Assembly: GCF_947500985.1 (NCBI RefSeq)
Contig: NZ_CANMTX010000006.1
Span: 1-64,000 of the forward strand
Source: an uncultured Maribacter sp.
Lineage (GTDB): Bacteria > Bacteroidota > Bacteroidia > Flavobacteriales > Flavobacteriaceae
Length of the DNA: 64,000 bases
Direction: 5' to 3'
In this document: piece by piece, positions 4,344 through 21,549 of the stretch
How the letters are laid out: each line of letters opens with the position of its first letter
Numbering within the stretch: the stretch's first letter is position 1
Made by a program: the position numbers and the translations under genes
Notes under the pieces: generated by a model
What the model was told of the DNA's origin: nothing
Seen by the model: the letters and a program-made list of their open reading frames with translations, nothing else
Database searches by the model: none

Positions 4344-5363
4344 ATGCAATCATCAGAACTACAGAGAATAATTCAAGGCATTCCAAAAACAGAACTTCAC
4401 TTACATTTAGAAGGGAGTTTTGAACCAGAATTAATGTTCGAGATTGCAAAGAGAAACAACATTACGTTACCATACGAATCTATTGAATCGGTTAAAGAAG
4501 CATACAAATTCAATAACCTTCAAGAGTTTTTAGATATCTATTATGCAGGTGCGCAAGTACTGTTACATGAGCAAGATTTCTTTGATCTAACCTGGGCATA
4601 TTTAACCAAAGTACACAGTGAAAATGTAAAACACGTAGAGGTGTTTTTTGACCCACAGACACATACCGAAAGAGGTGTAGCTTTTGATGTTGTGATAAAA
4701 GGAATTCACCGCGCTTTAGAAAAAGGAAAAAATGAATTAAATATATCTTACAAACTCATCATGAGCTATTTGCGTCATTTGAGTGAAGAAGACGCTTTTA
4801 AAACCTTAGAAGAATCGTTACCGTTTAAAGACATTATCGATGGCGTTGGATTAGATTCCTCAGAAATGGGAAATCCGCCAAGTAAATTTGAAAAAGTATT
4901 TAAAGCGTCTGCTGCACAAGGGTATAAACTTGTTGCTCATGCAGGGGAAGAAGGTCCGGCAGATTACATCTGGGAAGCTTTAGATATTTTAAACGTAGAA
5001 CGTATAGACCATGGTAATCGTTGTTTAACGGACGAAGCTTTGGTTAAAAGATTGGTTGATGACAAAATTGCTTTAACCTTATGCCCTACCAGTAATGTAG
5101 CCCTAAAAGTGATACAGAAAATGGAAGAACATCCCGTTGCTAAAATGCTTAATAAGGGAATTGTGGCTACTATACACTCAGACGACCCTGCCTATTTTGG
5201 TGGCTATATGAACGAGAACTACTACCAAACTGCGAAAGCGCTTAATTTAAGCTTAGCACAAATAGAGCAACTGGCTATCAATGGTTTTGAAGCGAGTTGG
5301 TTGAGCACCGCATCTAAAGAAAAACATATAAAAGAAGTAAAAGAATACTTTAAATCGCTTTAA
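4344..5363 (+). CDS. adenine deaminase (adenosine deaminase family)
   Basis: 339 residues of the metal-dependent ADD family, converting adenine to hypoxanthine for purine salvage in the cytoplasm. The zinc ligands HxH are at His19/His21 (HLHLEGS). The catalytic Glu is in HAGEEGP near residue 200, followed by IDHG and the SDDP motif near 280. The signatures [30 protein letters not shown] and [11 protein letters not shown] match the bacterial/fungal adenine deaminase branch (EC 3.5.4.2) rather than true adenosine deaminases. Database labels of adenosine deaminase are therefore probably imprecise. Its 3' end overlaps the convergent histidine kinase gene by 14 bases. Confidence 0.85.
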
Positions 5364-6681
5364 CTGCAAGGGGAATAAATAGTTCAAAAACTGCACCATT
5401 ACCAAGCGAACTTTCCACAGTAATATGTCCGTTATGTGTAGTAACAATGCGTTTTACAATGGCGAGTCCTATTCCGGTGCCTTGATATTCTTCGTCGCTA
5501 TGTAATCGTTGAAAAATCTTAAAAACCTTACTTTCATATTTCTGGTCAAAACCAATACCATTGTCAGTTACAATAATATGAGAATATTGCTTGTCGTAAT
5601 TTAATTGTAAAAGAGGATAATCTTCACCTTGCACAACTTTACCTGATACTTTAATTACAGGCTTCTCTTCGTTTTTGGTAAACTTAATAGCGTTTGTAAA
5701 TAGATTAAATAACAACTGCTTAAACTGTATTGGTCTAACCGTAACATCACAATCTTTTGAAATTTTAAGTGCTGTTTTATGTTCCTTTAACTCTTCACTT
5801 AATACATCTTTTACATCTAAAACCAACTTTTTTAAAGAGACCGTTGTTAAACTGTTATCTATTGTTTCGGTTCCTCCATAAACTAGTAAATCTTGAATTA
5901 GATTACGCATACGAGCCGCAGATAAATCAATTCGTTCTAATTTATGTTTACCTGCAGTAGATAAATTATGAAACTCATTATCACTAATTTGAGAAATGAA
6001 CATTTGTATTTTACGCAGCGGTTCTTGCAAATCGTGACTACAAATATGGTTGAATGAAGCCAAATCATTTATCATCAACTCTAACTTTATAGTCTTGATT
6101 TCTAATTGATTGGTACGTTGAAAAACTTTTTTCTCTAATTTTTTAGAGAATTTCTTCAACTTTTTATGTGCCCTTTCAAGCTCTAATTTATTCTTTCTAA
6201 GCTCCAACAAGTTAATAACTTGTTCAGACAAAATATTCAGAGATTCTTTTTGACTATCTGTTAATTTTCTAGGCTTGTTATCAATAACACACAAGGTACC
6301 TAAAGGCAAACCACTTGCATTCTTTAGAGGAATACCAGCATAAAAAACTATATTAGGATCACCCGTTACTAAAGGGTTATCATGAAAACGTTCATCTTCA
6401 CGAGCATCTTCAGTCGTAAAAATGGGGTCACTACCCGTAATAGCATGCGCACAAAAGGCATCTTCAATAGGTGTTTCAGAAACTCCTAGACCGTAATTAG
6501 ATTTAAACCACTGTCTTTTATCATCTAAAAGTGTAATTAATGAAATTGGTGTCTGACAAATTTCAGCCGCTAGTTTGGTAAGGTTATCATAATCTTTTTC
6601 AGGCAATGTGTCTAAAATGGAATATGAATTAAGAAGTGCAAGGCGTTCTTTTTCCCTATCATGAATTTTGGCTTTTGTCAT
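5350..6681 (-). CDS. GAF-domain sensor histidine kinase
   Basis: 443 residues with no membrane segment, so a cytoplasmic sensor. A GAF domain spans about 20-160, a Lys/Glu-rich coiled coil about 160-205, then the HisKA dimerisation domain with the phospho-acceptor His216 (CSHDLQEP). The HATPase domain follows with an N box (NLFTNAIKF), G1 (DNGIGF) and G2 ([12 protein letters not shown]). No response regulator gene is adjacent, so the partner is encoded elsewhere. The stimulus is unknown. The long 5' non-coding region up to the pterin genes may hold divergent promoters. Confidence 0.85.
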
Positions 6682-7017: not shown

Positions 7018-7055
7018 ATTTTGTTTAATATTTAACACAATTACTTAAACAAAAT
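7018..7055 (+). promoter_or_regulatory. palindromic operator copy 1, in front of the pterin genes
   Basis: Perfect inverted repeat: ATTTTGTTTAA (7018-7028), 16 bases, TTAAACAAAAT (7045-7055). A -7-like TACCTTTA (7060-7067) follows seven bases after the inner 8-bp arm, so a bound dimer would cover the promoter. The same 8-bp arms with the same 16-bp spacing recur at 11534-11565 and, with one mismatch, at 20852-20883. The cognate regulator is not in this window. A MerR-type light- or stress-responsive protein is one possibility. Confidence 0.65.
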
Positions 7056-7102
7056 TAAATACCTTTATCACATTAAATTTTTAAAAAACTTTTCTTTAAA
7101 AA

Positions 7103-7513
7103 ATGAATAAACTAGCCTTAGTAAGATGTGAACATTTTAATGCAGCACATAGATTGCACAATGCAAATTGGAGCGATGAAAAAAACAAAGAAGTTTTCGG
7201 AAAATGTAACAACCCAAATTATCATGGACACAACTACGAACTTGAAGTAAAAGTAATTGGGTTTTGTAATAAGGATACAGGTTACGTGATAGATACCAAA
7301 GTTTTATCTGATTTAATTGAAGAAAAAGTTTTAGATCGATTTGACCATAAAAATCTAAATCTAGACACTGAAGAATTTAAAACCCTTAACCCGACTGTTG
7401 AAAATATAGCAATAGTTATTTACGATATTTTAAAAACTGAGATTGAACCAAATTTAGAGTTAAAGATTAAACTCTATGAAACACCAAGAAACTATGTTGA
7501 ATACCCTTATTAA
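7103..7513 (+). CDS. 6-pyruvoyl-tetrahydropterin synthase / QueD family
   Basis: 136 residues. Zinc ligands are visible as the His of AAHRL and the YHGHNY pair; a catalytic-type Cys precedes them in GKCNNPNYHGHNY, and a late Glu lies in LYETPRNYVEYPY. The family converts dihydroneopterin triphosphate to 6-pyruvoyl-tetrahydropterin or, in the queuosine branch, to carboxy-tetrahydropterin. The gene next door is folE, which makes the substrate, and no queC/queE is present, so a pterin cofactor route fits better than queuosine; this is inference. The next reading frame begins inside its last codons (ATG 7494, 20-base overlap). It is preceded by the palindromic operator. Confidence 0.8.
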   Translation: MNKLALVRCEHFNAAHRLHNANWSDEKNKEVFGKCNNPNYHGHNYELEVKVIGFCNKDTGYVIDTKVLSDLIEEKVLDRFDHKNLNLDTEEFKTLNPTVENIAIVIYDILKTEIEPNLELKIKLYETPRNYVEYPY

Positions 7514-8174
7514 AGAAAACAAATTAAATGGATTTTCAGAAGAGGAAATCGGTGATGATCATATTTACACAGGTCTTGAAACTCCTATGAAATCAGATGC
7601 ATTTAAAATATCTGACGAAGAAAAATAGGATAAAATAGCAGATTTATTCTCACAAATAATGGATGTTATGGGACTAGATCTTCAAGACGATTCTTTGAAA
7701 GGAACACCTAATCGTGTTGCTAAGATGTATATAGATGAAATCTTTTCAGGTTTAAACCCTGCCAATAAACCTAAAGTAGCCTTATTTGATAATAAATATC
7801 AGTACAATCAAATGCTGGTAGAAAAAAATATAACCTTTTATTCGAACTGTGAGCACCACTTTGTACCGATTATAGGTAAAGCCCATATCGCATATATTTC
7901 TTCTGGTAAGGTAATCGGACTTTCAAAGCTTAATAGAATTGTTCAATATTATGCCAAGAGACCACAAGTACAAGAGAGATTAACAAATCAAATCGCTGCT
8001 GAGCTAAGACAAATTTTAGAAACTGAAGATGTAGCCGTAATAATAGACGCTAAGCATTTATGTGTCTCGTCACGTGGTATTAAAGATGATACTTCTGCTA
8101 CAGTAACTTCTTTTTATGGAGGTGTATTTAATACATCAAGTAAGATTGCAGAATTACAAAATTATTTAAATTAA
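7494..8174 (+). CDS. folE: GTP cyclohydrolase I (FolE), interrupted by an in-frame amber codon
   Basis: GTP cyclohydrolase I makes dihydroneopterin triphosphate from GTP. The full-length frame starts at ATG 7494 and reads FolE-like sequence (GDDHIYTGLETPMK, AFKISDEEK) up to TAG at 7626-7628, then continues in the same frame with the core. The core holds zinc ligands in NCEHHF and HLCVSSRG, the QERLT active-site segment, and a typical C-terminus. Without the stop it would be 226 residues, the usual length. Only the part from ATG 7659 (171 residues) is an uninterrupted frame; that ATG lies 31 bases after the TAG and could allow re-initiation. The missing N-terminal helices are not catalytic, so partial function is conceivable. 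Confidence 0.8.
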
Positions 8175-8268
8175 AAAAGCTTACTCGAACTTAGAACTAT
8201 AGTGGCAAGTGCAGAGAAAAAGCTTTTACATAAATAATTAGCGTAAACTGAACAGATGAACTGATATA

Positions 8269-8320
8269 GCATATAACTTAATACCATTCTTAAAAGAATG
8301 GCATTAAGTTATATGCTTTT
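8269..8320 (+). terminator. strong hairpin after folE
   Basis: 22-bp arms 8269-8290 and 8295-8316 pair with a single mismatch around a TAAA loop and are followed by TTTT. It ends the PTPS-folE unit. The remaining non-coding sequence of this 360-base gap (8175-8532) shows a TATTTTTG -7-like element near 8368 and nothing else I can support. Confidence 0.65.
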
Positions 8321-8536
8321 AAAAAAAAGTTAAAAAGTATAAAAGGAATAGTAACTTATTTATTGATATATTTTTGCATTAAAATGCTTAGTTCATGTTC
8401 AAGAAGAGTTTATCAATGTTAATTGGGAAATTCAAAAATAGTAAATACTGTTATTTTAAAATTCATGAATACTAGCTATTCTCAGCACAACTAATAGGGC
8501 ACTTAGTATCCGATAATTTCTTTTAAAATTAAGTCA

Positions 8537-9057
8537 ATGAAAAAATAGAAAAAGCAAAAACCGCTCCCATCGAAAAAAACATAATAGCCAAAACTTCTAT
8601 CTACGACATAAAAATAAATTCTCTTGAGGGCAAATCGATTGACCTTTCTAAATTTATTGGCAACTATATTCTATTTGTAAATGTGGCTTCAGAATGTGGC
8701 TTCACCAATCAATATAAAGATTTACAAAAACTAAGTGATACCAATAAAAATCTAACCATCATAGGAGTCCCCTGTAATCAATTTGGAGGACAAGAGTCTG
8801 GTGATAGTTCTCAAATTAAAACTTTTTGTGAGCGTAATTATGGCGTAAATTTTTTACTCACAGAAAAAATAGATGTAAAAGGTAGCAAACAGCACCCATT
8901 ATATCAATGGTTGACTGATAAAGAACAGAATGGTAAAACCAATTCTACTGTAAGGTGGAATTTTCAAAAATACTTGATAAACAAAGAAGGGAACTTAGTT
9001 GATTATTTTTATTCCATAACGAAACCTTTTAGTTCAAAAATTATCAAGCATTTATAA
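8537..9057 (+). CDS. glutathione peroxidase family protein, frameshift at the N-terminus suspected
   Basis: Thiol peroxidase of the glutathione peroxidase family. The peroxidatic Cys lies in NVASECGFT, the Gln in CNQFGGQE, a TGPx-type second Cys in TFCERNYGV, and the Trp in RWNFQKYL. It is Cys-based and probably thioredoxin-dependent. The family sequence begins at least at 8602 (YDIKINSLEGKSIDLSKF), and the frame is open from 8533 without any ATG. The ATG at 8537 is in another frame, joined by a run of six A (8540-8545); one extra A would give MKKIEKAKTAP in frame. A GTG at 8683 would remove an essential strand. It is either a frameshift mutation or sequencing error, or a rare start. The next gene overlaps its stop (TAATG). 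Confidence 0.75.
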
Positions 9058-9464
9058 TGTCAATTAATCTACTAGGTATACTTATTGATTTCGGATTAGT
9101 AGTACTCATTTGGATAGTGCAATTAATCATTTATCCGAGTTATACGTTTTACAATCATAAGAACCTAGTCTTATGGCATAAAAAATATACTAGGTTAATT
9201 GCCTATATCGTTGGTCCGTTGATGGTTGTTCAATTAACACTATCGATATACCATTATATTACAGAAACCGAACCCTATCAGTTACTAAAACTAATTTTAA
9301 TAATCTTTGTTTGGGTGATTACAATGTTACAATTTGTACCACTACACAACCGTATTACCATTAATCAATTTGACGATAAAGTACTCTTATCACTAGTTCA
9401 AAAGAATTGGTCAAGAACTATACTTTGGACGGTTATACTTTTTATAGAATGCCTATTTATTTAG
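9057..9464 (+). CDS. four-helix membrane protein coupled to gpx
   Basis: 135 residues with four hydrophobic helices at about 5-27, 48-68, 77-97 and 113-133. Short conserved-looking motifs are IYPSYTFY after helix 1 and FVPLHNRI after helix 3. I do not know the family's function. The start ATG overlaps the stop of the glutathione peroxidase gene (TAATG), so the two are translationally coupled. It probably belongs to the same stress response. It converges on the photolyase gene with a 75-base gap. Confidence 0.6.
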   Translation: MSINLLGILIDFGLVVLIWIVQLIIYPSYTFYNHKNLVLWHKKYTRLIAYIVGPLMVVQLTLSIYHYITETEPYQLLKLILIIFVWVITMLQFVPLHNRITINQFDDKVLLSLVQKNWSRTILWTVILFIECLFI

Positions 9465-9539
9465 AATGTAAAAAGTGTAAAATTAATAAACAAAATTTAA
9501 AACTTAATTACGGCAAAAGTCTGTCAATATTATGCATTT

Positions 9540-11012
9540 TCACCTTAAATCGGTCTTTGAATTATTTACATGAGTTTTCAGCAGACGGTATTTTTCTTTT
9601 TGAACGGCAGGATGGTTTTTATGTTCCCAAATTTTTTCTCTTGCAACCCGTGCACTTTCTTGTAAATCTACAATTGGTAATGGATAATCTTCGCCAATTA
9701 TAACTTCACAGAACGATTGTTCTAAAACTGTCATTTTCCATGGTTCATGAATGTGCACAATTGGAACGTTTGCAAGTTCTGGAACCCACTTTTTTATAAA
9801 AACACCTTCAGCATCATGTTCTTGAGAGTTCTTTACCGGATTATATAAACGTACTGTATTAATGCCAGTTGTACCGGCCTGCATTTGAAATTGAGGATAA
9901 TGAATACCTGGTTCATAGTCTAAAAATAGTCTAGCCAAATGATAGGTGCCTTCTCTCCAATCTTGATCTAGGTTAAGTGTAAAAAATGAAACTACCATTG
10001 CCCTCATTCTAAAATTTATCCACCCAGTCTGTTCTACAGCTCGCATACAAGCATCAATTAAAGGATAACCTGTTACCCCTAACTTCCATGCTTTAATAAA
10101 GGAATCATTTTTTTTATGCTTTAAAAGTTCATAACCATTATTGATACACGCTGTTTCATAGCTACATTCTACCTCAAATTTTTGAATAAAATGGCAGTGC
10201 CAAAATAATCTAGTTAACATGGCTGAAAATGCTTGATTATTTTTTGTTCCGTTCGGGTGGGTACCTATAAATTGAAATGCTTGTTTTACACTTATATTTC
10301 CCCAGGCTAAATATGGCGATAATCTGCTACACCCTTTTCTACTTTCTGTTGGTTTAGAAATATGTTTCTGATAATTACTACCCCTTGTACTTGCAAAAGA
10401 TTTTAAATATCGTAAAGCATTCTGTTCGCCTCCAGGTTGAAAATTACTATTGGTTTTTTCTAAATTAGTTTTAAACTCTTCTGGTAATAAAAAGGGATGT
10501 TTTAATAGCTCTAAATCAGATACCGAATACTTATTTCTAATTATAGGTTGATGCATTTTCAAGTGCCATTGTTTACTCCAATCCTCTCTATTTTTAATAC
10601 CCCTTAAAATACCGTCACGTTGAAATTCGTGCCAAATTACACTGTATTTACTACAAATTTCTTTTACTTTTTTATCTCGCTGCCATGATAATTTGATTCC
10701 ACTTTCGCAATAGCTAAAAAGTGAATTAACTTCAAAATGATTGTTAAGGTATTCTAGAACACTTTCGACTTCACCATAAAAGAGCGTAACACTTCTATTA
10801 TATGGCTTTAAGGTTAAATTTAAAGCTAAGATAGATTTATAAATAAATTGTAAATGCCTTAAACTTGTATCTGGGTATTGAATTAGAGATGGTTCAAATA
10901 GATAGATAATTATATATGGAATACCTGCTCTTTCTGCATGAAGTAAAGGTTCATGATCTTGTGAGCGTAAATCACGTTTCAACCATACAATGTTCAGTTT
11001 TGTTTTGCGCAA
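9540..11012 (-). CDS. cryptochrome/photolyase family protein
   Basis: 490 residues. The N-terminal alpha/beta photolyase domain (about 5-165) opens with [16 protein letters not shown]. The FAD-binding domain (about 200-470) has [39 protein letters not shown] and [10 protein letters not shown]. It repairs pyrimidine dimers with blue light, or senses light. The segment that in E. coli PhrB carries the electron-transfer Trp382 reads [13 protein letters not shown] here, with Phe and Met where PhrB has Trp, so it belongs to a separate photolyase branch; it is not CRY-DASH by sequence. It lies 139 bases downstream of the TIGR03643 gene and is probably driven by the operator at 11534-11565. Confidence 0.85.
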
Positions 11013-11151
11013 GATTAATTTAATTTTTATTTACTTAAGAAGAAATAGCTACATCCTATTTTTTGTACACCTTAAATATGTAGCGACAATTAATAGTTAT
11101 AAGAATCTAATAGCTAATTGAAATACTAGTTTAAGAACCTATTAAATAAAT

Positions 11152-11436
11152 TTAACGCTTACTTATTCTATTACCCGAAATAGCTCTTTGCCGTGAACAT
11201 TTAAATCGTGAGATTTCTGAACTACGCTTTTTTAAATGCTTTTGACTTGTACCACTATTAACCCTTTTACGCCATCGTTTAAAACTAGACTCTTTTAGAT
11301 TGCCGCGCATTACTTTGATAACATCTTTTTCAGGTAAGTCAAACTGAAACAATATGGCCTCAAAAGGTGTTCTATCTTCCCAAGCCATCTCTATAATACG
11401 ATCTAATTCTACACTATTGAATGATTTAATATCCAT
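11152..11436 (-). CDS. TIGR03643 / DUF2805 family protein
   Basis: 94 residues. The opening ELDRIIEMAWEDRTPFEAI, the helix-turn-helix-like FDLPEKDVIKVMR and SFKRWRKRV are typical of this small basic family, which regularly accompanies photolyases. Its function is unknown. The predicted helices and basic C-terminus (SKKR-like run ending GNRISKR) suggest nucleic acid binding. It is the first gene of the leftward unit that continues into the photolyase gene. The palindromic operator lies about 100 bases upstream. Confidence 0.8.
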   Translation of the reverse strand: MDIKSFNSVELDRIIEMAWEDRTPFEAILFQFDLPEKDVIKVMRGNLKESSFKRWRKRVNSGTSQKHLKKRSSEISRFKCSRQRAISGNRISKR

Positions 11437-11530
11437 GGACTTTACCTGTAAATTTTATTTGTCTGTTTTCTTTTTAAATAATTTGAAAACTTTTAAAAAG
11501 TATAATTTCTTAATAAGGGATAAAATTACA

Positions 11531-11570
11531 AATTTGTTTAATTAAATGGAAAATATATTAAACAAAATTA
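11531..11570 (-). promoter_or_regulatory. palindromic operator copy 2, in front of TIGR03643-photolyase
   Basis: TTGTTTAA (11534-11541), 16 bases, TTAAACAA (11558-11565): the same arms and spacing as at 7021-7052. Read leftward, toward the photolyase genes, the arm closest to the genes is followed after five bases by TAATTTTA, similar in placement to the TACCTTTA of copy 1. The outer arm also shares the flanking AATTTTGTTTAATAT with copy 1 on the coding strand. Confidence 0.65.
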
Positions 11571-11864: not shown

Positions 11865-11875
11865 TTTGCTCTAAG

Positions 11876-11960
11876 CGGAGAAAGAGGGATTCGAACCCCC
11901 GGAGGTGTGACCCTCAACAGTTTTCAAGACTGCCGCATTCGACCACTCTGCCATTTCTCC
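11876..11960 (-). tRNA. tRNA-Ser (anticodon UGA)
   Basis: 85 bases on the minus strand. The acceptor stem GGAGAAA / TTTCTCC, the anticodon loop CTTGAAA (anticodon TGA), a long variable arm (GTTGAGGGTCACACCTCC region) and the T loop GGTTCGAATCC are all visible. The CCA end is not encoded. The long variable arm is the class II feature expected for serine. Confidence 0.95.
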
Positions 11961-15151: not shown

Positions 15152-16411
15152 ATGAATATACTTTTAAAATCAGTTACGGTAGTAAATGGAAACGCAAAGA
15201 GTCTTCATTTAAAGAAAAGGGATATTCTTATTAAAAACGGAGTTATTGATGCCATTGAAACTACTATTGAACCAAGTGGTAAAACAAAGGTTATCAATAT
15301 AAAGAACTTACATGTTTCTTTAGGATGGTTTGATAGCGGCGTTAGTTTTGGTGAGCCTGGGTATGAAGAGAGAGAAACTATTGAAAACGGATTGTTAACC
15401 GCTGCCAAAAGCGGATTTACAGATGTCATCTTAAATACAAGTAGCTATCCTAAACCAGATTCAGCTTCTGATATTGTGTATTTAAAGAGTGCAGCCAAAG
15501 ATCAATTAACAGGTTTGCACCCTTTAGGCAACCTAACTGTTAAAGGTGATGGCGAAATACTCGCAGAGCTTTATGACATGAAGAATGCAGGTGCATTAGG
15601 CTTTTATGACTACAAGCACCCGATGGAAAATGCCAACCTATTAAAAATTGCATTGCAGTACGCTCAGAATTTTGACGGACTCGTATTTTCTTTTCCGTTG
15701 GATAAAAGCATATCTGGAAAAGGAATTGTAAATGAAGGTATTACCAGCACCAAATTAGGCTTAAAAGGGATACCCACCTTAGCGGAAGAATTACAGATAG
15801 CGAGAGATTTATTTATCTTGGAATATACCGGCGGTAAATTATTTATACCAACCATTTCTACAGCAAGTTCTGTAAAACTGATAGGCGATGCCAAGAAAAA
15901 AGGATTACAGGTTTTTTGTAGTGTAGCTGCTCACAACCTTGTTATTACCGATAGTGCCTTAGAAGATTTTGACACTCAATATAAAGTAATGCCGCCACTG
16001 AGAACGGCAGCAGATATAAAAGCACTTCAAAAAGGAGTGAAAAATGGCACTATAGATTTTGTAACATCTGATCACACACCATTGAATGTAGAATTGAAGC
16101 ATGTGGAATTTGACAATGCTGATTTTGGCACCATAGGTCTAGAAAGTACCTTCGGTATGTTGAACGAACTATTAGGTGTTGAAGACTCCATTGAACTGCT
16201 TACAAAAGGAAGATCAGTTTTCGGAATGAAAGAGCCAGAATTAAAAGTTGGGCAACCAGCAAACCTTTCTCTTTTTACTACAGATGACGCTTATGAATTT
16301 TCAGAAGATCAGATCTTTAGCTCAAGTAAAAACTCCATCGCAATCGGCAAACCAATGAAAGGTAAAGTAATTGGGTCTATTGCAAATAATCAATTAGTAT
16401 TAAATAAGTAA
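15152..16411 (+). CDS. dihydroorotase-like protein lacking metal ligands
   Basis: 419 residues with the amidohydrolase fold of class I dihydroorotases: an N-terminal beta sandwich, GEPGYEERETIENGLLTAA, MPPLRTAADIKALQKG and DFVTSDHTPLN. The catalytic HxH of DLHVHLREPG is replaced by Gly and Ser (DSGVSFGEPG), the substrate Arg is also lost, and the expected HLST and HCED motifs read TIST and FSFP. Only the late Asp (SDHTP) remains. It is therefore probably a non-catalytic homologue, comparable to PyrC-prime/PyrX proteins that support aspartate transcarbamoylase, rather than the cell's dihydroorotase. Two bases separate it from the next gene, so it is in an operon. Confidence 0.75.
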   Translation: MNILLKSVTVVNGNAKSLHLKKRDILIKNGVIDAIETTIEPSGKTKVINIKNLHVSLGWFDSGVSFGEPGYEERETIENGLLTAAKSGFTDVILNTSSYPKPDSASDIVYLKSAAKDQLTGLHPLGNLTVKGDGEILAELYDMKNAGALGFYDYKHPMENANLLKIALQYAQNFDGLVFSFPLDKSISGKGIVNEGITSTKLGLKGIPTLAEELQIARDLFILEYTGGKLFIPTISTASSVKLIGDAKKKGLQVFCSVAAHNLVITDSALEDFDTQYKVMPPLRTAADIKALQKGVKNGTIDFVTSDHTPLNVELKHVEFDNADFGTIGLESTFGMLNELLGVEDSIELLTKGRSVFGMKEPELKVGQPANLSLFTTDDAYEFSEDQIFSSSKNSIAIGKPMKGKVIGSIANNQLVLNK

Positions 16412-16412
16412 C

Positions 16413-16742
16413 ATGGAGAAAGTTCCCGAAATACCCGGAAAAAAAACCGCCATTGTGGCCTACCTTACAATTGTAGGAGCACTAATTGCGATTAGTATGA
16501 ATGCCGATCCCAAACACAATTTTGCTCGTTTTCATACAAGACAGGCTTTCGGACTTCATATTGTCTTTCTTGCTTTTGCCATATTAAATGCACAATGGGG
16601 TAATGAGTATGGCTTTTATGGACTTTATATATTCTATATCGTACTTTGGTTTTACGCATTTTTAGGCCTATTGGCTAACAAAGAACAAGCGGTTCCCGTT
16701 TTGGGACCTTACTTTCAAAAATGGTTCACTTTTATAAAATAA
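16413..16742 (+). CDS. small DUF4870-like membrane protein
   Basis: 109 residues. Hydrophobic stretches are at about 10-28, 48-62 and 68-88. A cytoplasmic loop has NFARFHTRQAFGLHI, a motif shared with DUF4870/Tic20-like small membrane proteins (FH.RQA). The C-terminus (PVLGPYFQKWFTFIK) is amphipathic. The function is unknown. It is packed between the dihydroorotase-like and esterase genes with gaps of 1 and 4 bases, so all three are surely cotranscribed. Confidence 0.65.
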   Translation: MEKVPEIPGKKTAIVAYLTIVGALIAISMNADPKHNFARFHTRQAFGLHIVFLAFAILNAQWGNEYGFYGLYIFYIVLWFYAFLGLLANKEQAVPVLGPYFQKWFTFIK

Positions 16743-20378: not shown

Positions 20379-20831
20379 TCAATCTAATAACTGAGCTGCA
20401 TGATCTTTAGTCTTCACCTTGTCAATAACTTTGGCAACAATACCATCACCATCTACAACAAAGGTTTTTCTATGAATGCCATCGTACTCACGCCCCATAA
20501 ACTTCTTTAGTCCCCATACGCCAAAAGCATTAATAACGGTATGGTCTTCATCTGCCAATAATGGAAATGGGAATTCATATTTCTCTTTAAATTTTGCCTG
20601 TCTCTTTTCAGAATCTGCACTAACTCCTAAAAGTTCATAGCCCTCAGATTGTAATTCTTTATAATTATCCCTTAAATTACATGCTTCAGCCGTACAACCA
20701 GGTGTACTTGCTTTTGGATAGAAAAAAACAACAAGTTTTTTACCAGCATAATCTTCTAATTTAATAGTATTGCCATCTTGATCTTTAGCAGAAAATGAAG
20801 GAACTTTATCACCAACTTTTAACGTATTCAT
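20379..20831 (-). CDS. bcp: thioredoxin-dependent thiol peroxidase (Bcp/PrxQ)
   Basis: 150 residues, the usual length. The peroxidatic Cys is in ASTPGCTAEACNLRD, with the resolving Cys five residues later as in the alpha-type PrxQ group. FSAKDQDGNTIKL, VVFFYPK and GVSADS are family features. It reduces hydroperoxides in the cytoplasm using thioredoxin. Its 55-base upstream region holds the third copy of the palindrome found at the photolyase/pterin cluster, which suggests a common stress regulator. Confidence 0.9.
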   Translation of the reverse strand: MNTLKVGDKVPSFSAKDQDGNTIKLEDYAGKKLVVFFYPKASTPGCTAEACNLRDNYKELQSEGYELLGVSADSEKRQAKFKEKYEFPFPLLADEDHTVINAFGVWGLKKFMGREYDGIHRKTFVVDGDGIVAKVIDKVKTKDHAAQLLD

Positions 20832-20851: not shown

Positions 20852-20883
20852 GTGTTTAAATATTTTCAATCAAAATTAAACAA
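20852..20883 (-). promoter_or_regulatory. palindromic operator copy 3 (one mismatch), between bcp and nth
   Basis: On the plus strand GTGTTTAA (20852-20859), 16 bases, TTAAACAA (20876-20883). The spacing is identical to copies 1 and 2, with one base differing in one arm. It is 21 bases from the bcp start and only 3 bases from the nth start, so it could affect both divergent genes. Confidence 0.45.
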
Positions 20884-20886
20884 TTA

Positions 20887-21549
20887 ATGACGAAAGCCGA
20901 AAAAATAGCATTTACAATTTCTACGCTTCAAGAGCTTTATCCAGAAATTCCTGTGCCTTTAGATCACAAAGACCCTTATACCTTATTAATTGCAGTTTTG
21001 ATGTCAGCACAAAGTACCGATGTGAGGGTAAATAAAATTACTCCCCTCCTATTTGCAAAGGCTGACAACCCGTATGACATGATTAAATTAAGCGTGGAAG
21101 AAATACGTGAAATTATTAAGCCTGTTGGTTTATCGCCCATGAAAGCAAAAGGTATTCATGGATTATCTCATATTTTAATTGATAAACATAATGGTCAAGT
21201 ACCAAAAGAACTTGAATATTTAGAAGAATTACCGGCTGTAGGTCATAAAACAGCAAGTGTTGTAGTATCGCAAGCTTTTGGTATACCTGCATTTCCTGTA
21301 GATACTCATATTCATAGATTGCTATATCGTTGGGGATTCACAAACGGAAAAAATGTGGTACAGACAGAGAAAGATGCAAAACGATTATTTCCTGAAGAAA
21401 TTTGGAACGATCTTCATTTACAAATAATATGGTATGGTCGTGAATATTCACCAGCAAGAGGCTGGGATATGGAAAAAGATATCATTACAAAAACAATAGG
21501 GAGAAAAACAGTACTAAATGACTATTATAAAAATAAAAAAGCCCGCTAA
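20887..21549 (+). CDS. nth: endonuclease III without the Fe-S cluster motif
   Basis: 220 residues. This DNA glycosylase/AP lyase excises oxidised pyrimidines. The helix-hairpin-helix LEELPAVGHKTASVVVSQAFG contains the catalytic Lys, and the catalytic Asp is in FPVDTHIHRL. The C-terminal Cys-X6-Cys-X2-Cys-X5-Cys cluster of E. coli Nth is absent; the corresponding segment reads YSPARGWDMEKD and has no cysteine. The fold is otherwise complete, so the enzyme is probably active. It is divergent from bcp, and both serve oxidative damage defence. Confidence 0.88.
   Translation: MTKAEKIAFTISTLQELYPEIPVPLDHKDPYTLLIAVLMSAQSTDVRVNKITPLLFAKADNPYDMIKLSVEEIREIIKPVGLSPMKAKGIHGLSHILIDKHNGQVPKELEYLEELPAVGHKTASVVVSQAFGIPAFPVDTHIHRLLYRWGFTNGKNVVQTEKDAKRLFPEEIWNDLHLQIIWYGREYSPARGWDMEKDIITKTIGRKTVLNDYYKNKKAR

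Follow-up and report, generated by a model that had tools for sequence, protein, structure and literature searches.

A conserved inverted-repeat operator beside light-related genes of Maribacter and other Flavobacteriaceae, and its likely CarH-type regulator

In a 64,000-nucleotide stretch of DNA from an uncultured Maribacter sp. of the Flavobacteriaceae (hereafter the window; positions 1 to 64,000 of contig NZ_CANMTX010000006.1, assembly GCF_947500985.1), we found that two gene pairs share a 32-bp dyad composed of two inverted half-sites, each TTAAACAA, on either side of an N16 spacer. Operator 1 (7021..7052) lies upstream of PTPS-folE and operator 2 (11534..11565) upstream of the minus-strand unit DUF2805-photolyase; both read exactly TTGTTTAA-N16-TTAAACAA, and neither is assigned a strand. 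A sequence-only reading of the window had picked out these two copies with identical arms and spacing and had oriented them towards PTPS-folE (plus strand) and towards DUF2805/TIGR03643 and the photolyase (minus strand), and it was right on both points. Judging from its distribution over sequenced genomes, the dyad is a conserved operator. We think it probable that it serves a CarH-type MerR regulator, a homologue of the B12 photoreceptor encoded in a carH-crtI-crtB-crtZ locus, which would repress its targets in the dark and release them in the light.

Only copies with no more than one mismatch exceed chance in the genome from which the window comes (the own genome: Maribacter, 4.25 Mb, 42 contigs). 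This genome holds three exact copies and four with one mismatch, that is, three and seven at the two thresholds, where a reversed-pattern control gave none and one. At two mismatches the count (25 sites, with 20 in the control) is noise, and at three mismatches the window has seven sites against a shuffled mean of 4.33, with 12 of 100 shuffles reaching seven. Taken over the whole genome, sites with two or three mismatches were discarded, their counts being equal to those of controls; the two-mismatch site at the genome's own carH was retained because its position is conserved in relatives.

The exact motif is widespread in the family. In a 60-genome set that includes the own genome it occurs in 39 genomes, among them 35 of 36 of Maribacter, with 98 sites against two for the control, and across 299 family genomes it occurs in 198 genomes and 170 of 236 genera, with 428 exact sites against 12 reversed-pattern control sites. 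A set of 296 genomes spanning the phylum contains 37 with the exact motif (six control hits). It is present in 25 of the 30 genomes of the family, in 11 of 37 from the class outside the order and in one of 223 from beyond the class; the six genomes from the order's remaining families lack it, although in the relatives set four genomes of such families carry it. As to placement, an open reading frame (ORF) start pointing away from the site lies within -20..150 bp of 117 of the 138 distinct exact sites, compared with 14% of random positions drawn from these loci; 14 of the sites fall inside an ORF, versus 79% of random positions. Random intragenic placement, which the sequence-only reading had named as the observation that would tell against an operator, is thus not the pattern we see.

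The arms are also conserved upstream of orthologous genes, as that reading had anticipated. Among close PTPS orthologues, the own gene included, the operator is exact in 8 of 10, has two mismatches in one and is lost in one (L442); among close DUF2805 orthologues, again including the own gene, it is exact in two of three and lost in one. Core-locus paralogues lack the motif, the best match having at least four mismatches in 20 PTPS loci (of 34 listed) and 27 DUF2805 loci (of 31; a contig end truncates one DUF2805 locus, L472). Two PTPS matches were found in the own genome, where the window gene is a second copy. The other lies in C5:368000-387500 (L513), where the PTPS gene (16043-16450) and a DUF2805 gene (4844-5188) are 55% and 64% identical to their window counterparts; no site with fewer than three mismatches was found within these 19.5 kb, and therefore not every photolyase-associated gene belongs to the set.

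From position, co-occurrence and half-site, the likely binder of the dyad is a CarH-type MerR/B12 protein. The own genome has two MerR_1 matches, one of which (C3:50549) combines MerR_1 and B12-binding_2 domains and matches Thermus CarH structure sequences with an E value of 5e-13. This carH is the first gene of its locus, followed by crtI, crtB and a gene that we take to be crtZ-like, and a motif copy with two mismatches overlaps its start codon. The sequence-only reading had envisaged a MerR-family gene preceded by the motif; such a gene, with a B12 domain, does exist elsewhere in the genome, and the position of its site is conserved in relatives. Among the 57 best-scoring carH loci (30 of Maribacter, 27 of other genera), 52 have a site of at most two mismatches at -24..+8 of the carH start codon. 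The exceptions are a one-mismatch site with a shifted start codon (L083), an exact site at -63 (L198), two sites with three mismatches in register (L176 and L199) and a locus with no site (L193); codon 2 of carH is AAC in 55 of the 57 loci. In other genera, an exact operator adjoins carH on the crt side at 14 of 66 family-level sites, eight of the 14 having been selected since their motif coordinates adjoin carH; crtI is labelled directly at nine of these, crtB about 1.5 kb on at four, and one locus is cut off.

Motif and regulator also occur together. Exact copies are present in 193 of 242 carH-positive versus 5 of 57 carH-negative family genomes, and in none of the 11 carH-lacking genomes of the 60-genome set. 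The similarity of the carH homologue matters as well, with the exact motif in 185 of 211 genomes that have a close one (E < 1e-80) and 4 of 22 that have a distant one (E > 1e-60).

The sequence-only reading had further claimed -7-like elements downstream of both operators, and both were located by eye: TACCTTTA (7060-7067, plus strand), seven bases after operator 1, and TAATTTTA (11528-11521, minus strand), five bases after operator 2, are imperfect elements each one base off the flavobacterial -7 consensus TAnnTTTG. The first falls in the downstream register range (about 37-41) observed at other operator sites. Over 392 oriented windows around operators, TAnnTTTG is enriched inside the spacer beside the right arm (registers 16-17, 49 windows), with a weaker enrichment downstream of the operator (registers 37, 40 and 41, 19 windows), against a mean of 2.0 per offset. 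Overlap with the left arm (register -4, 53 windows) is close to the expectation from flank composition (roughly 65) and was set aside; at carH loci a TAnnTTTG box overlapping the left arm is conserved, and we counted the overlap there only, because those columns are conserved. The operator shifts relative to the -7 box yet covers the promoter or start codon, and a repressor therefore fits better than an activator.

In the mechanism we propose, CarH would sit in the dark on the two inverted half-sites, covering the -33/-7/start region and blocking RNA polymerase; in the light, the Co-C bond of its adenosylcobalamin would be broken and CarH would leave the DNA. Release would induce the photolyase, pterin synthesis, carotenoid, fasciclin and DoxX-like genes and carH itself, together with proteorhodopsin and blh in relatives that have them. 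Of these steps we infer binding by CarH most firmly, repression by that binding next, and B12 and light as the signals least.

Proteorhodopsin enters through the relatives, as no proteorhodopsin gene was found in the own genome. It is present in 70 of the 299 family genomes, and among 66 genes with enough upstream sequence the operator is exact in 16, with one, two and three mismatches in 11 each; at up to two mismatches this makes 38 of 66, against 6 of 66 for the reversed control. In named genomes, 79 of the best 80 proteorhodopsin matches were usable, of which 24 have an exact operator, 28 one mismatch and 16 two, or 68 of 79 against five for the control (the two gene sets overlap). The spacer is again N16: a site of that spacing is present in 68 of the 79 upstream regions, one with N15 in none, one with N17 in two and one with the best other spacing in 20. 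An operator with at most two mismatches precedes proteorhodopsin in 36 of 53 cases in carH-positive and 2 of 13 in carH-negative genomes; a Psychroflexus gene is without one. Exact copies are found at the proteorhodopsin genes of, for example, the cultured strains Maribacter arcticus, Kordia periserrulae, Nonlabens tegetincola, Robiginitalea myxolifaciens, Winogradskyella pelagia and Leeuwenhoekiella parthenopeia.

Published work, cited here from partial texts, offers several parallels. In the known CarH operators, 11-bp direct repeats, nnnnTnnACAn, follow one another in tandem, with TnnACA as the half-site (PMC9304148), and the same half-site (T-AA-ACA) lies within TTAAACAA and hence in both arms of the dyad; the CarH proteins described so far block promoters in the dark and come off the DNA in the light (PMC9614035, PMC8156234). 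Like CarH of Thermus thermophilus, Bacillus megaterium and Myxococcales, the flavobacterial proteins join a MerR domain to a B12-binding four-helix domain and have W-x9-EH and ExHxxG motifs, and crt genes, the targets there, are probable targets here. The neighbours of the dyad also include proteorhodopsin and blh, which go unmentioned for CarH of Thermus, Bacillus and Myxococcales in the available parts of those sources. Class II LitR proteins (PplR1 of Pseudomonas putida, PmlR2 of P. mendocina) resemble the proposed system in having a light regulon with photolyase, cryptochrome and FolE, but their operator, T(G/A)TACA-N12-TGTA(C/T)A, differs from the flavobacterial dyad in arms and spacing, and their partner is a LOV protein (PMC9758184). 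Closer at hand, crt genes are light-induced in Chryseobacterium lacus, another member of the Flavobacteriia (PMC7064467).

Several observations weigh against this assignment. As to distribution, 49 of 242 carH-positive genomes are without an exact copy, and five carH-negative genomes (73-91% complete) hold one. The own carH site, with its two mismatches, belongs to a class that over the whole genome is noise; at most of the Polaribacter proteorhodopsin genes read, the mismatches number at least three; and the conservation and co-occurrence counts ignore phylogeny. As to geometry, the dyad is an inverted pair with N16, unlike the three or four tandem 11-bp direct repeats of known CarH, and a hidden 11-bp direct repeat sought in the spacer was not found (TnnACA stands in an 11-bp register in 5 of 378 strands from 189 unique sites). 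For Chryseobacterium lacus, the accessible part of the paper reports that no car/lit operon was found and invokes an unknown regulator instead (PMC7064467). As to the protein, the flavobacterial regulators differ from Thermus CarH in lacking His132 and part of the Rossmann signature. His132 is a residue shared by many CarH proteins though not by all; its position is occupied by Gln in 71 of 76 aligned proteins and by His in two; in place of x41-SxT/V-x22-27-GG, Ser is kept in 68 of 76, Phe stands at S+2 in 71 of 76 and GR replaces GG in the own protein. The own regulator scores 67.8 bits against a cut-off of 400 for the NCBIfam CarH model NF052513, and a Pfam search gave no B12-binding Rossmann match for it. 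In Thermus, CarH with the H132A substitution mostly stays tetrameric after light, according to the available portion of PMC10442372.

These substitutions and weak profile scores are what speaks for the best-surviving alternative, in which CarH binds the dyad without sensing light, the signal being B12 itself or another, or activates rather than represses. We regard it as unlikely. The W-x9-EH motif is kept (WQTDTISPAHEH in the own protein), with Trp and Glu in all 76 aligned proteins and the His in 75, as is the lower-axial motif D/ExHx2G (EIHDIG), with Glu and the axial His in all 76 and Gly in 74, and the neighbours of the operator are light-related genes; the activator variant fits the variable position relative to TAnnTTTG less well than a repressor would. 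Slightly less likely again is a genuine operator with another binder, such as a CRP/FNR-like protein, a response regulator or an unknown factor, for which carH would be merely one target. CarH was assigned by position, co-occurrence and half-site only, a GAF-histidine kinase gene (5350-6681) lies beside operator 1, and a CRP/FNR protein is reported to act alongside LitR in Thermus; against this, carH is the gene at which the site recurs at its own start or just behind, the motif tracks close rather than distant carH homologues, and the arms contain the CarH half-site. Chance matches in AT-rich DNA, which would explain why counts at two to three mismatches equal those of controls, have a negligible probability and are refuted for exact copies by the excess over control sites in the 299 genomes, the fixed spacing and placement and the retention at orthologues.

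Within the window, operator 1 precedes the plus-strand genes PTPS (6-pyruvoyl tetrahydropterin synthase family, 7103..7513; PF01242, 1.4e-33) and folE (GTP cyclohydrolase I, 7659..8174 as listed; PF01227, 4.2e-60; NF006824). The folE frame is open upstream to 7494 save for an in-frame TAG at 7626-7628, and the listed ORF restarts at 7659; this TAG is absent in the eight relatives' loci shown (L436-L441, L443 and L444). Operator 2 precedes the minus-strand DUF2805/TIGR03643 gene (11152..11436; PF10985, 1.9e-33; TIGR03643 above its cut-off) and a photolyase/cryptochrome-family gene (9540..11012; Pfam FAD_binding_7 and DNA_photolyase), for which every NCBIfam match is under its cut-off. The sequence-only reading had described a pterin/photolyase/peroxidase cluster; the PTPS-folE and photolyase units do carry operators, but the peroxidase-like ORF (8683-9057) has none of its own among the motif sites of the window. 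The glutathione-peroxidase-like frame there (8500-9057) is without an in-frame ATG, and the listed ORF begins at a GTG within the domain. The GAF-histidine kinase gene is divergent from operator 1 and also stands beside the PTPS operator in three relatives; considered as a regulator, it had proximity to operator 1 as the sole point in its favour and was set aside. The only tRNA detected in the window is tRNA-Ser (tga), at 11875-11960 on the minus strand. A one-mismatch copy (20852..20883, unstranded) lies between the divergent genes bcp (20379-20831, minus strand) and nth (20887-21549, plus strand); its membership in the regulon is unproven, and single one-mismatch sites of this kind could still be chance.

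Elsewhere in the own genome, exact or near-exact copies at C3:69909 and at C1:388241 and 389316 stand in front of a fasciclin gene and of two convergent DoxX-like genes, respectively, and one at C10:83052 lies between flavin-reductase-like and kynurenine-monooxygenase-like genes, names that we assume, in part from relatives' Pfam matches. When the proteins adjoining 73 distinct exact sites (own genome plus relatives) were clustered, the clusters held 27 fasciclin, seven PTPS, six DoxX-like, three FolE-like, three flavin reductase and two DUF2805 proteins, together with seven proteorhodopsin and seven divergent blh genes from five loci, two of which have tandem sites. A 165-aa protein without a Pfam match, which forms a cluster of eight, is presumably SRPBCC-like, and a secreted-looking 152-aa family, also without a Pfam match, lies behind the operator at seven sites (L102:2522-2980 and relatives). 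RecQ, MnmA and peptidase-like clusters resemble divergent or convergent neighbours of the operator. Besides the 14 carH/crt loci, the 66 family-level sites include many fasciclins, photolyases, MsrA-FolE, SDR-peroxidase, HSP90, a GHMP kinase, a rhodopsin and unnamed genes; the HSP90-like (HtpG) genes adjoin exact operators in four loci (L212, L217, L256 and L260).

Outside the order, nine loci were read. In five the operator adjoins an ECF-sigma-like gene, with carH present as well in one of the five, and in a sixth it adjoins carH alone; of the rest, one precedes a rhodopsin, one precedes PTPS and one has no such gene. Pfam confirmed carH, one sigma factor, the rhodopsin and PTPS among these. 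Likewise, in loci outside the family (L140, L496, L497, L500, L502 and L503), an ECF-sigma-like gene frequently follows the operator, sometimes with carH close by, as if an ancestral circuit had run through a sigma factor.

Neither CarH and LitR nor light regulons that include photolyase and FolE are new (PMC9758184, in part). Judging by our literature searches, what is new is the geometry of the dyad, its occurrence across Flavobacteriaceae and in some other Bacteroidia, the autoregulation suggested by the site at the carH start codon and the link to proteorhodopsin and blh; open-licence PMC papers, with subscription literature mostly outside the search, yielded no report of the dyad operator or of CarH control of proteorhodopsin. 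We see an even chance that a CarH-type B12 photoreceptor, acting through this operator, controls proteorhodopsin phototrophy in flavobacteria, with targets that answer both to light and to B12 supply (de-repression when B12 is short) and with a ligand chemistry that, having Gln for His132, differs from that of Thermus CarH. Since cobalamin would be the sensor's cofactor, B12 supply would then affect the rhodopsin, retinal, carotenoid and repair genes. Photolyase genes are enriched in proteorhodopsin-bearing Flavobacteriia, according to the part of PMC5932025 available, and this enrichment would, if the reading is true, be tied to one switch. The finding offers a candidate, testable regulator for flavobacterial proteorhodopsin and a defined DNA site in cultured strains, and the recurrence of the motif across marine flavobacteria points to a possible switch for their light-related genes.

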